Part shown: positions 38,273 to 41,718 of the stretch, piece by piece
How the letters are laid out: the number at the start of each line of letters is the position of its first letter
How positions within the stretch are numbered: the first letter of the stretch is position 1
NCBI RefSeq assembly: GCF_003675875.1
Contig: NZ_RCDI01000002.1
Span: 312,786 to 376,785 of the forward strand
Origin: Halostella limicola
Lineage (GTDB): Archaea; Halobacteriota; Halobacteria; Halobacteriales; Natronoarchaeaceae
DNA length: 64,000 bases
Reading direction: 5' to 3'
Notes under the pieces: generated by a model
Database searches by the model: none
Seen by the model: only the letters and a program-made list of their open reading frames with translations
What the model was told of the DNA's origin: nothing
Translations under genes and position numbers: made by a program

Positions 38273-39682
38273 GTGGGTGATTCACACTTGGCAATCGAGT
38301 TCGCACACAGTCCCCTGCTGACGTTCGTCGTGGGGCTGATAGCGGTCATACTGCTGCTAGTGGTATTGGACCTACCGGCGTTCGTCGGTCTGATCATCGC
38401 CGCGTTCCTCGTCGGCGTGGTCAACGCGGTGTTCGTGCCCGACTTCGCCCCGGGCGAAGCCGCGACGGCGACGGCGGAAGCCTTCGGCGCGGGGATGGCC
38501 GGCATCGGGATCCCGATCCTGATGGCGGCGATCATCGGGAAGTCGATGCTGGAAAGCGGCGCGGCACAGCGGATCGTCCGCGGCTTCCAGAACGTTCTCG
38601 GCGAAGGGAACGCCGACATCGCGCTGTGGGGTAGCAGTTCGGTACTCGCTATCCCCGTCTTCTTCGACAGCGTCTTCTACCTGCTGGCGCCGCTCGCGCG
38701 GTCGATGCGGGCCAGAGTCGGCAAGAACTACACGCTCTTCATCGTCGTGGTCGGGGCCGGCGGCGCGACGACGCACGTGTTCGTCCCGCCGACGCCCGGG
38801 CCGCTCGCGGTCGCCGACCAGGTCGGATCGAACCTCGGGATGACGATCCTCATCGGCATCGCGACGGCGCTCCCGGCGGCGACCATGGCGGGGCTCGTCT
38901 ACGGTCGCTGGATCAACAAGCGTCTGGACATCCCGCTCCGGGACGCGATGTCGACGACGACCGAGGAGCTACAGGAGGTCGCCGACCGCGACACCAGCAC
39001 CCTCCCGGGCGTCCTCGAATCCGCAGCGCCCATCATCCTGGCCGTGGTGCTGGTCGCCTCGCTCACGGTCGTCAACACCTTTCAGGAAGTGTATCCGGTC
39101 CTCGAGTCGATCCAGCCGTACGTCGCCTTCATCGGCGACAAGAACGTCGCGCTCACCATCGCGGCGCTGGCGGCGGCGTGGACGTACTTCCGCTACAGCG
39201 CCCTCGACCGCGAGGCCTGGACCGAGGAGCTCACCGAGGCCCTGAAAAGCGGCGGGAACATCGCCGCGATCACCGCGGCCGGCGGCGCGTTCGGCGCGCT
39301 GCTCGCCGCGTCGGGCATCGGCGACTACATCACCGGCGCGCTGGGCGATCTCGGTATCCCGCTGCTCGTCAGCGCGTGGCTCATCGCCGCCATCGTCCGG
39401 ATCGCGCAGGGGTCGGCGACGGCCGCGATGCTCACCACCGCGGGCATCATGGCCCCGCAAGTGCCCGAACTCGCCGTCCACCCGGCCTACCTCGTGATGG
39501 CCATCGGCGCGGGCGGCAACATCTTCTCGTGGTACAACGACAGCGGCTTCTGGCTGGTCAAGGAGATCGGCGGCCTCACGCAGGCCGAGACGCTCAAGAC
39601 CTGGACCGTTCTCACGACGATCATCTCGGTTACCGGGATCGTGACGACGCTGGTCCTGTCGGCGGTCCTCCCGCTGGCCTGA
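38273..39682 (+). CDS. gntP: GntP-family gluconate/organic acid:H+ symporter
   Basis: This 469-residue membrane protein has about 12-14 hydrophobic segments. GAGGATTHVFVPPTPGPLAV near residue 165 is the GntP-family signature, and VRIAQGSATAAMLTTAGIMA near residue 380 is the matching motif in the second half. The family imports gluconate and related sugar acids. Position near gnaD and gdh supports gluconate or a similar aldonate. The GTG at 38273 fits the TATA box; a TTG six codons later is an alternative start. A TTTTTT run at 39697-39702 probably ends the transcript. Confidence 0.87.
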   Translation: MGDSHLAIEFAHSPLLTFVVGLIAVILLLVVLDLPAFVGLIIAAFLVGVVNAVFVPDFAPGEAATATAEAFGAGMAGIGIPILMAAIIGKSMLESGAAQRIVRGFQNVLGEGNADIALWGSSSVLAIPVFFDSVFYLLAPLARSMRARVGKNYTLFIVVVGAGGATTHVFVPPTPGPLAVADQVGSNLGMTILIGIATALPAATMAGLVYGRWINKRLDIPLRDAMSTTTEELQEVADRDTSTLPGVLESAAPIILAVVLVASLTVVNTFQEVYPVLESIQPYVAFIGDKNVALTIAALAAAWTYFRYSALDREAWTEELTEALKSGGNIAAITAAGGAFGALLAASGIGDYITGALGDLGIPLLVSAWLIAAIVRIAQGSATAAMLTTAGIMAPQVPELAVHPAYLVMAIGAGGNIFSWYNDSGFWLVKEIGGLTQAETLKTWTVLTTIISVTGIVTTLVLSAVLPLA

Positions 39683-39696
39683 CAGCCGACCGCTCG

Positions 39697-39702
39697 TTTT
39701 TT
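39697..39702 (+). terminator. T-tract terminator after gntP
   Basis: A TTTTTT run begins 15 bp after the gntP stop, in a short spacer between convergent genes. T-tracts without a strong stem are usual archaeal termination signals. Confidence 0.5.
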
Positions 39703-39720
39703 CGCCGCGGCCGACGCCCC

Positions 39721-40089
39721 TCAGCCGTCGCCCGGAAACGCCATGGTGGAGAGCAGCGCGTTCTCCGCCTGCCGGGAGTCGAGCCGCGTGTGCTGACAGA
39801 CGACCGGTACGTCGGCCTCGACGACGCTCGCGAACCCCTCTCCTCGCGGTATTTCGGGGTCCTCCAGGTCGTTGAACTGGATGTGTTCGGTGCGTTCCGG
39901 CTCGACGGTCCGCTCGTACGGTCCGACCGGGTCCCGGTCCGAGAAGTAGACGGTGATCTCGATATGCGCCGGTTCGTCCGTCGCGTTGAGGACGCAGACG
40001 GTCTCGTGGCTGACCAGTTCCGGTTTCGGCGCGGTGCTCTCGGCCGGGATGTACCCCTCGGGGATCGCCCACTGCTGCTTTCCGATCAC
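39721..40089 (-). CDS. ASRT-family protein (Anabaena sensory rhodopsin transducer homologue)
   Basis: This 122-residue beta-rich protein matches the ASRT family along its whole length: IGKQQWAIPEGYIPAEST at the start, HETVCVLNATDEPAHIEITV, FSDRDPVGPYERTV and the conserved CQHTRLDSRQAENALLSTM at the end. The first member was found as the partner of Anabaena sensory rhodopsin, but most members occur without rhodopsin, often near sugar genes. No rhodopsin gene is seen in this window. Here it lies between gntP and gnaD, suggesting a role in sugar-acid sensing or binding (inference). Confidence 0.88.
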   Translation of the reverse strand: MIGKQQWAIPEGYIPAESTAPKPELVSHETVCVLNATDEPAHIEITVYFSDRDPVGPYERTVEPERTEHIQFNDLEDPEIPRGEGFASVVEADVPVVCQHTRLDSRQAENALLSTMAFPGDG

Positions 40090-40391
40090 GGGTGTTCACC
40101 CGTTCGGGGGTCCACGATCCGGGCAATAAACCTCCGGAACTGACAGCGGGCGACGGGGACGACGGGCGCGAAAAGTCGGGTCGAAGGGGATGACAGCAGC
40201 GAAGCGCCGGATGATCCGGCTTACGCCTCGTCGAACGAGTCGAATCGGAGATTCGCCAGCTCGATCCGGCTCATGCCGGCTCGATCCGGCGTGAGCCGGA
40301 TCGAACGCCGCGGAGCCAAGCTCCGCGAGTTTGACTTCGGCTTACGCCTCGTCAAACGAGTCGAATCGAAGATTCGCGGGCTCGATCCGGC
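40090..40391. other. 302-bp spacer with hairpin array between ASRT gene and gnaD
   Basis: There is no normal gene here. From 40206 to 40405 it is packed with at least eight perfect short hairpins: 40206-40220 (TGA loop), 40227-40239 (CGA), 40241-40255 (GGA), 40281-40304 (10-bp arms), 40309-40327 (CAA), 40348-40360 (CAA), 40362-40376 (GAA) and 40382-40405 (10-bp arms). It contains a 63-bp direct repeat and two 17-codon reading frames on the minus strand. Confidence 0.7.
40217..40279. repeat. 63-bp imperfect direct repeat, copy 1
   Basis: This copy differs from copy 2 (40338-40400) at five of 63 positions. Each copy contains a CTCGT/ACGAG hairpin, a CGAATC/GATTCG hairpin and part of a CCGGC/GCCGG hairpin. 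The two copies begin 121 bp apart. Confidence 0.8.
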
Positions 40392-40405
40392 TCACGCCGG
40401 ATCGA
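40281..40405. repeat. 24-bp inverted repeat flanking the hairpin array
   Basis: The 24 bp at 40281-40304 and at 40382-40405 are exact reverse complements of each other. Each is also a perfect hairpin by itself (arms TCGATCCGGC and GCCGGATCGA, loop GTGA or TCAC). The right copy covers the end of gnaD. Confidence 0.75.
40338..40400. repeat. 63-bp imperfect direct repeat, copy 2
   Basis: This is the second copy of the repeat. Its right end reaches into gnaD, covering the gnaD stop codon and its last two codons. Within the pairing regions the changes fall mostly in the three-base loops (CGA to CAA, GGA to GAA), leaving the stems intact. Confidence 0.8.
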
Positions 40406-41630
40406 ACAGCTCCTCGCCCTCGACCATGTGCTCCTCGACCGCGTCCATGTCGAGGGTCAGGCCGAGGCCGGGCTCCTCGGGGATCTCGATGTAGCCGTCC
40501 TCGATGACCGTCTCCTCGACTAAGTCCTCCCACCAGCCGAGCTCGTAGCTGTGGTACTCCACCGCCAGCGAGTTGGGGATGGCCGTGCCGACGTGGGCCG
40601 AGGCCATCGTCGCGATCGGGGAGGAGACGTTGTGCATCGCGACCGGGATGTAGTACTGGTTGGCGGCGTCGGCGATCTTTCGGGTCTCGCGCATGCCGCC
40701 GACCTTCGGCAGGTCGGGGGCGATGATGTCGACCGCCTGGTTCTCGATGAGGCGGCGCTCCTCGGTGACGCGGTAGCGGTTCTCGCCGACGGTGATCGGG
40801 GTCGACGTGGACTTCGTCACTTCCTCCTGCACGTCGAGGTTCTCCGGCGGGACGGGGTCTTCGAGCCACCAGACGTCGTACTCCTCGATCGCCTCGGCCA
40901 GCCGCTTCGCGGACCCGCCCGAGAACGTCCAGTGACAGTCGAACGCGACGTCGGCGCGGTCCTTGACACGCTCGGTGACCTTCTCGACGATCTCGGCCTT
41001 GTGGCGGATCTCGCCGGGACGGAGGTGGCGGTTGGCGCGGTCCTTCTCGAAGCCGCTCGGGACGTCGAGGTCGAACTTCAGGGCGTCGTAGCCCAGCTCC
41101 TCGACGACGCGCTCGGCCTCGTCCGCGCAGGCGTCGGGGTCCGCCTCGTCTTCCGTGTGACAGTCGCAGTAGACGCGTACCTGGTCGCGGTACTTACCGC
41201 CGAGCAGCTGGTAGGCCGGCACCTCCAGGATCTTGCCGGCAAGGTCGTGCAGCGCGACCTCGATCCCGGCGATGGCGGTGACGGTGACGCCCTCGACGGA
41301 GCCCTCGCCGGACATCTTCTGGATCAGGTGCTCGTAGAGCCGGTCGATGTCGAGCGGGTTCTCGCCGATGACGAACGGCTTCATCCGCTGGATGAGCTCG
41401 GGGACGCCCGCGCCCCAGTACGCCTCGCCGGTGCCGACGACGCCGGCGTCGGTGTAGATGCGCACCAGCGTCCACGGGAAGTTCCCGTCGATCATCGTCG
41501 TCTGGACGTCGGTGATCTCGACGTCGCGACCGCCGCCGCGCTCGCGCGTGACGCCCATCGTCTCTTTCGATAGCTCCCGCATCGTATACTCCGCGTTCGG
41601 ATCGTGCAGGTCCGAGTAATCGACTCCCAT
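40392..41630 (-). CDS. gnaD: Gluconate/galactonate dehydratase (enolase superfamily)
   Basis: This 412-residue enolase-superfamily dehydratase shows the pattern DALKFDLDVPSG with catalytic Lys near residue 190, metal ligands in FDCHWTFSGG, WLEDPVPPEN and TVGENRYRV, and a late catalytic region VAMHNVSSPIATMASAHVG with His. It converts gluconate to 2-keto-3-deoxygluconate in the haloarchaeal semi-phosphorylated Entner-Doudoroff pathway. Galactonate or xylonate use cannot be excluded by sequence. Neighbours gdh, gfcR and gntP support gluconate. The ATG at 41630 gives MGVDYSDLHDPNAEYTMRE. Its 3' end lies inside a hairpin repeat. Confidence 0.87.
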   Translation of the reverse strand: MGVDYSDLHDPNAEYTMRELSKETMGVTRERGGGRDVEITDVQTTMIDGNFPWTLVRIYTDAGVVGTGEAYWGAGVPELIQRMKPFVIGENPLDIDRLYEHLIQKMSGEGSVEGVTVTAIAGIEVALHDLAGKILEVPAYQLLGGKYRDQVRVYCDCHTEDEADPDACADEAERVVEELGYDALKFDLDVPSGFEKDRANRHLRPGEIRHKAEIVEKVTERVKDRADVAFDCHWTFSGGSAKRLAEAIEEYDVWWLEDPVPPENLDVQEEVTKSTSTPITVGENRYRVTEERRLIENQAVDIIAPDLPKVGGMRETRKIADAANQYYIPVAMHNVSSPIATMASAHVGTAIPNSLAVEYHSYELGWWEDLVEETVIEDGYIEIPEEPGLGLTLDMDAVEEHMVEGEELFDPA

Positions 41631-41718
41631 GGTACCCCGTTTACTCACCCCACAGTAAAGCTTTGAGATACCGTTCGGGGGAGTTAACTAACGAAAATGA
41701 AAGATAGCGCCGCCGACG

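Follow-up and report, generated by a model that had tools for sequence, protein, structure and literature searches.

A tandem array of double-hairpin palindromic units at the end of a haloarchaeal gnaD-like gene, with probable membership of a mobile repeat family

The window analyzed here, a stretch of 64,000 nucleotides of Halostella limicola DNA, carries a gnaD-like gene on its minus strand. Gluconate/galactonate dehydratase are the top NCBIfam models for its protein, with scores under the model cut-offs, so that the name gnaD is likely rather than proven. The feature at 40206-40405 consists of about three and a half double-hairpin palindromic units of roughly 50 nt arranged in tandem, which follow one another on the gnaD strand in the order A, B, A, B, A, extra hairpin, B and half A. 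Downstream of the array lies a gene for a 122 aa ASRT protein (Anabaena sensory rhodopsin transducer family; 39721-40089, minus strand), which is adjoined by a gene for a GntP-type permease (38273-39682). The features are listed below, R1 being the model of gnaD units described further on.

40392-41648, minus strand: gnaD-like sugar-acid dehydratase gene (enolase superfamily), 418 aa; open reading frame with Pfam MR_MLE_N/MR_MLE_C
40392-40394, minus strand: gnaD stop codon TGA, in the loop of the first array hairpin
40357-40406, minus strand: unit 1, 50 nt; R1 match C3:353142-353191
40306-40356, minus strand: unit 2, 51 nt; R1 match C3:353091-353141, E 7.7e-10
40236-40305, minus strand: unit 3, 70 nt; R1 match C3:353021-353090, E 1.2e-6
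40206-40235, minus strand: terminal half unit TTCGACGAGGCGTAAGCC, from the sequence; reads F-D-E-A-stop
40217-40284, no strand assigned: direct repeat of 63-68 bp, left copy
40338-40405, no strand assigned: direct repeat of 63-68 bp, right copy
40281-40304, no strand assigned: one arm of an exact 24-nt inverted repeat, partner 40382-40405

In unit 1 hairpin A reads TTCGATCCGGC-GTGA-GCCGGATCGA and contains the final gnaD codons, F-D-P-A-stop, while hairpin B reads GCGAATC-TTC-GATTCG. Unit 2 is composed of a hairpin A TTTGACGAGGCGTAAGCCGAAGTCAAA and a hairpin B GCGGAGC-TTG-GCTCCGC, and in unit 3 hairpin A (TTCGATCCGGC-TCAC-GCCGGATCGA) is followed by an extra small hairpin and then by hairpin B (GCGAATC-TCC-GATTCG). 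The pattern of hairpin A is TTYGAY...RTCRA with an apex that is mostly C-GNA-G or C-GNNA-G; the remainder of the unit consists of a short linker (often GCTCG), a hairpin B with a variable self-complementary stem, and a CGGCG- or CGGTG-like end before the next TTCGAC. The TTYGAY start of the first hairpin A is at the same time the Phe-Asp codons of gnaD, and the stop codon sits in its GTGA loop. The terminal half unit holds a small hairpin, GCCGGA-TGA-TCCGGC in plus-strand letters, and is possibly a displaced older gnaD terminus, a shifted terminus being seen in Haloferax as well.

The original prediction described at least eight perfect short hairpins, mostly with three-base loops, at a density above chance, and this held up: nine non-overlapping perfect hairpins (stem of at least 5, loop of 3 to 5) were counted in 40206-40405, six with loops of 3 nt (TGA, CGA, GGA, CAA, CAA, GAA) and three with loops of 4 nt. 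Dinucleotide shuffles (n = 1000) gave a mean of 1.38 hairpins and a maximum of 6, none reaching nine, and the stretch from 40201 has the highest hairpin count of 1276 sliding 200-nt windows in the 64 kb. The predicted 63-bp repeat with five mismatches is present and extends to 68 nt at 91% identity; the five differences within its first 63 nt (40233, 40248, 40257, 40258, and 40274) lie three in loops and two in a linker, in agreement with the claim that they fall mostly in loops. The exact 24-bp inverted repeat was likewise found as described, and the right repeat copy does cover the gnaD stop. Folding of 40190-40412, proposed for both strands, gave z-scores of -9.4 for RNA of the gnaD strand, -7.3 for RNA of the other strand, and -8.4 for DNA of the gnaD strand. 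Two claims needed amendment. The array had been placed immediately behind gnaD, and it does adjoin the gene end, but it begins within the last four codons; and the claim that coding does not explain it is right for the greater part of the array but not for the first hairpin, whose left arm is gnaD coding sequence, nor for sister units elsewhere that lie within coding sequences. The hint that a small RNA, or an element of the gnaD 3' end, might be involved found no counterpart in Rfam: a search of 39600-41700 with E up to 5 returned nine matches, every one under the gathering score, and four further loci gave no match at the gathering score (Rfam 15). The array resembles Rfam families in being structured and covarying, and differs from them in that no family reached the gathering score at these five places. 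The idea of a terminator was also considered and dropped, as the distance to the next TTTT (median 183 after arrays versus 98.5 after bare gnaD stops) showed no clear pattern.

The distribution of the array was addressed by a BLAST search with the 200 bp, which gave matches in 21 of 59 genomes, the window's own included; of the 32 matches listed, 22 lie at the 3' end of gnaD or a gnaD paralog, four of these in the own genome. The sequence downstream of 41 gnaD-like genes (30 + 11) was then cut at TTYGAY, which gave 51 stretches, with lengths of 49-51 nt in 28 cases. The model R1 was built from 28 clean units picked by eye out of these 51, which include a few chance stretches. Scans with this profile, and with that for dispersed units described below, scored the best 74-150 candidates per genome, so that their counts are lower bounds, and their E-values are rough. 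At E <= 0.01, R1 matched in at least 36 of the 59 genomes. Every match with E < 1e-6 is at an end of gnaD or its paralogs, save for one in genome G003 that is 2.2 kb from gnaD, and weaker matches are mixed. This exception (L054, G003:C4:233064-233120) is a gnaD-type unit downstream of the gnaD end, placed as if an insertion had split an array. In a separate sample of 80 named haloarchaeal gnaD loci, overlapping the first by at least one locus (L214, which carries a unit and had contributed to R1), 49 have a unit starting at the terminal Phe-Asp codons, always on the gnaD sense strand; in L213 the start is at Phe-Asn instead. Among the 107 R1 matches in the 80 loci, 101 fall in the 49 array loci, one lies at 1 kb (L191), and five are on the opposite strand. 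No unit was found by R1 in the remaining 31 loci, 14 of which end exactly in TTCGACGARGCG and a stop (counted by eye). The number of units per locus ranges from 0 to 5, and subtypes (single linkage, 85% identity) are common to different genera, at differing positions in the array. According to the original prediction, a region absent or unstructured in close relatives, with no copies elsewhere, would point to a local accident; copies were looked for, and the structure recurs at the gnaD of many haloarchaea and at other genome sites, yet some close relatives, such as Halostella pelagica (L174), have no unit.

The stems of the gnaD units alter by compensating substitutions. In the 28 clean units the two-helix structure pairs 88.2% of cells versus 71.0% after shuffling, with 89 double-change cells versus 24.7 and changes on both sides in 13 of 17 pairs, figures which are inflated by common ancestry, as are those of the following opposite-arm test on 79 of 82 parsed units (41 first and 38 later). 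For the Phe and the Asp codon alike, the third base agrees with the opposite arm in 37 of the 41 first units (about 25 when shuffled, 0 of 5000), and at the corresponding positions of later units, where both sides are non-coding, the match is 34 of 38 each. On the gnaD strand, 58 of 78 parsed units have a GNA/GNNA apex on hairpin A and 4 have the opposite type; for hairpin B the preference is reversed, with 8 GNA/GNNA and 19 opposite apices among 70. C-GNA-G mini-hairpins are unusually stable in DNA. One alternative is a reading at the RNA level, in which the array would be a conserved structured 3'UTR of gnaD that steers mRNA decay, transcription termination or translation termination, with RNA folding under selection. 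The invariable placing of first units on the sense strand and at the stop codon, the compensatory stems, the A apices resembling stable RNA loops, and the RNA fold (z of -9.4) are in its favor. We nevertheless regard it as rather improbable: unit numbers lie anywhere between 0 and 5, with none in 31 of the 80 orthologs, similar units lie within unrelated coding genes, the DNA strand folds strongly too (z of -8.4), and the distance to the next T run is uninformative. Among the standard pairs, moreover, 17 in 418 and 9 in 255 are G-U, which in our judgement is few for a purely RNA-level constraint. The array is probably transcribed as the gnaD 3'UTR, and any effect at that level would be secondary.

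Between related species the gnaD ends differ by whole units, placed between ..CTG and TTCGAC, and since the first unit brings its own ending (F-D-x-A, F-D-E-E or F-D and stop) the end of the protein is hardly altered. The gnaD end of Haloferax larsenii has no unit (...TTCGACGAAGCGTAAGCCGAGAACGTTCT), and that of Haloferax elongans has one 53-nt unit followed by a 3' flank identical to that of larsenii, TTCGACGAGGCGTAAGTCGAGAACGTTCT; the terminus is shifted, from FDEA-stop in larsenii to FDEE-stop in elongans. Direct repeats are found on both sides of the elongans unit. Haloferax profundi carries a unit whose A hairpin is identical to that of the elongans unit, and in Haloferax massiliensis a close relative of the elongans unit stands in second place behind a different first unit. 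Given this sharing of the A hairpin with profundi and massiliensis, a precise loss in larsenii by direct-repeat recombination is as likely as a gain in elongans. It is from Haloferax alone that growth of arrays at the gene-proximal end is suggested, the unit orders in other cases being ambiguous. In the window's own genome a gnaD paralog has one unit that is identical to unit 1 at 48 of 50 positions. The two genes are 83% identical (1000/1205), with 55/60 in the last 60 nt before the unit and 26/54 past it; both the copying of a single unit and a conversion of the gene end would account for the paralog unit, the latter because identity is 55/60 already just before it. A single unit was also seen at the end of a different gene, which terminates in FDDA-stop (L109, G024:C8:114300-116400), with a flanking direct repeat GAGGTGTTCGACGATG. 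These data bear on the possibility that nothing mobile is involved, the arrays having arisen at the gnaD end by local tandem duplication and quasi-palindrome template switching. The overlap of array units with gnaD codons and the direct repeats flanking the elongans unit fit such a process, template switching would leave stems perfect, and gene conversion could supply the paralog unit. We consider it quite improbable in view of the same architecture being scattered over many genomes and genes, and of subtypes (85% single linkage) that are common to several genera at differing array positions.

Weaker but similar units distant from gnaD were matched by R1 as well. A second model, R2, was made from 16 hand-cut dispersed units with no gnaD unit among them, and its unit structure is 97.0% paired. 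At E <= 0.01, with up to 100 candidates scored per genome, R2 matched in at least 31 of the 59 genomes, the window's own included; the copies numbered at least 61 for G008, 33 for G006, 28 for G002, and 9 for the genome of the window. Among 80 genomes drawn from the phylum (E <= 0.001; best 74 candidates per genome, strict filters) it was found in six of 11 genomes of the window's order and in none of 69 outside that order. The location of the units was determined for 44 of 45 loci (the best per genome and not a random sample; L125, which runs into masked N, was omitted), and by a codon-composition rule 31 of the 44 units are internal to coding sequences, with 27 of them sharing one orientation relative to the gene. 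Such units encode peptides like DADEQSSSSPRSASPRED, and the in-frame insertions are often 15-17 aa long. Divisibility of the length by three was rejected as proof of coding constraint, as it is seen in 30 of 31 units within coding sequences but also in 11 of 13 outside. A target-site duplication was rejected too: the six nucleotides before the unit and those at its end agree at 4.52 of 6 positions over the 44 units and at 4.39 of 6 in mismatched loci, and since the latter agree nearly as well the flanking hexamer is fixed and not a target-specific duplication.

Four genes, with names assigned from sequence fragments, could be compared between orthologs with and without a unit. A TIGR01177-like methyltransferase (under the model cut-off; 8 of 10 loci used, the two pieces of G008 being omitted) has the unit in G000 and G002, a degenerate one in G004, and an empty site in G001, G003, G005, G006, and G007. 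For the other three genes 21 of 30 loci were used, four of the ten GltX loci (G001, G005, G006, and G008) remaining unparsed because the motif was not found: glutamate-tRNA ligase contains a unit in G004 and is empty in the five other parsed orthologs, PDH E1 alpha contains one in G002 and is empty in four orthologs, and an MBL-fold gene contains one in G027 and is empty in five. Since the site is empty in genera other than the filled one, a gain is the simpler explanation at all four. All five units of the NAVEH type that were checked (L151, L136, L128, L161, L124) are inserted at the NLFRNAVEH motif of histidine kinases, which may be a second hot spot. After each of them the motif is repeated in a form like D(A/S)VEHG (DTAEHG in L136). 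One arm of hairpin B is made up of the codons GTYGAR, and to it the other arm is complementary in 5 of 5 over three codon variants (by eye). Two other observations concern structured regions. In L113 (G046:C2:174700-176700) double hairpins lie directly upstream of a tRNA-gene-like start, GCGCCGGTGGTCTAGTGG, and GCGCCGGTG is repeated at the units. L114 and L115 are identical 45-nt R1 matches that lie in almost identical sequence contexts at two sites of the same genome (G018), perhaps a repeated structured-RNA or tRNA region and probably unrelated to the double-hairpin family.

The occurrence of related units at the same gene end in many haloarchaea and inside other genes means that the array is not a local accident. 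On the sequence comparisons, we consider it probable that its units belong to a family of palindromic double-hairpin elements that are mobile in haloarchaea, for which the gnaD stop would be a favored site. Presence and absence of units, near-identical units at two loci, empty orthologs, and compensation all point to mobility, and most of the whole-unit differences would then be gains. The gnaD site may be favored because in many species its terminus, TTCGACGARGCG-stop, resembles half of a hairpin A, and the histidine-kinase site could be favored in the same manner, its codons resembling half a unit. Insertion and repair might be templated via the hairpin, by single-stranded or template-switch synthesis, and such hairpin-templated synthesis would let the stems stay paired while their sequence drifts. 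A more specific version is offered tentatively and is itself rather doubtful: units would be nucleated by host codons that resemble half a unit (gnaD TTCGACGARGCG-stop; histidine-kinase AACGCCGTYGARCAYRG), with the other arm being the reverse complement of the host's synonymous codons, additions being gene-proximal, and the stop being recreated each time. If true, this would amount to a hairpin-templated, self-restoring insertion process, of which we know of no description in prokaryotes.

A different source of mobility would be an HUH transposase acting on the single-stranded form, the units being relics of a non-autonomous IS200/IS605-type element (a terminal-only PATE or REP/RAYT-like). Haloquadratum has many IS605-type elements together with PATEs and other small mobile repeats that are transposase-free and contain palindromes, some of them terminal-only remnants of just 52 bp (PMC3119063). 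Our units are likewise haloarchaeal, palindromic and free of a transposase, and both their size and their hairpins fit this idea. The search for a mobilizing enzyme covered 30 of 51 TnpB matches, from five genomes: 29 of these 30 loci held no R2 match at E <= 0.01, the exception being L302, where a unit-like double hairpin comes right after tnpB. PATE palindromes resemble IS605 ends; for our units no such resemblance was found in the part of those ends that was examined, and 4 of 22 sequences following a tnpB stop (anchored at the stop and not at mapped transposon ends) start with a G(G/A)TGGGGYAGTTYAC motif that is unlike the units. The numbers of TnpB-domain matches (21 in G003, 11 in G000, 9 in G002, 6 in G008, and 4 in G006) do not track those of the units (at least 15, 9, 28, 62, and 33, respectively). 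On the loci and genomes covered here an IS605 relic is unlikely, and a PATE origin of the units finds no support.

The probable mobile family has several counterparts among known repeats. PMC3733652 describes Rickettsia palindromic elements and CGTC- or GTAG-tagged REPs as short, many-copy palindromes found both between and within coding regions; its two mentions of archaea are both in the reference list. Our units share with the Rickettsia elements the short palindromic repeats, the many copies, and the intergenic and coding locations, and also the in-frame insertion into genes (31 of 44 units within coding sequences; four genes with empty orthologs). In contrast to both, they have two hairpins per roughly 50 nt, variable stems that compensate, tandem arrays of whole units, and archaeal hosts. 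Tagged REP families have a single palindrome of 20-40 bp with an unpaired GTAG or CGTC at one end, and in the CGTC families the stems are 8-9 bp with A-T pairs at the first two positions. The haloarchaeal units do not fit this description: they hold two hairpins and have stem pairs that vary widely with compensation. Many dispersed units do read CGGCGT followed by C, which spells CGTC, but this C is paired in the stem, and the gnaD units start with TT and have no CGTC (by eye). The mitochondrial double-hairpin and repetitive hairpin-forming elements are described in PMC2800124 as short, scattered, sometimes paired, mostly intergenic, and with no known adaptive function. Short, scattered hairpins, two of them adjacent in each element, are a feature in common, whereas the haloarchaeal units are chromosomal, in many cases internal to coding sequences, and recurrent at the stop of one gene in many genera.

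No report of such double-hairpin units in haloarchaea was found in the open-access literature, which set the scope (subscription papers fell outside it), and the passages of PMC12306157, one of the nearest texts, have no word beginning with "halo". The units look like tiny mobile repeats of a family not described before. Serine-rich insertions of 15-17 aa and odd C-termini in haloarchaeal proteins can be element-borne, which calls for caution in annotation. The gnaD end, with one site, many species, and alleles with and without units, offers a clean system for studying how variable stems stay paired. Our best reading of these analogies is that the units would act like the Rickettsia palindromic elements, within genes and apparently selfishly, and be built like the mitochondrial double-hairpin elements; if so, haloarchaea would join the lineages with palindromic selfish DNA in protein genes, here those for glutamate-tRNA ligase, a methyltransferase, and histidine kinases.
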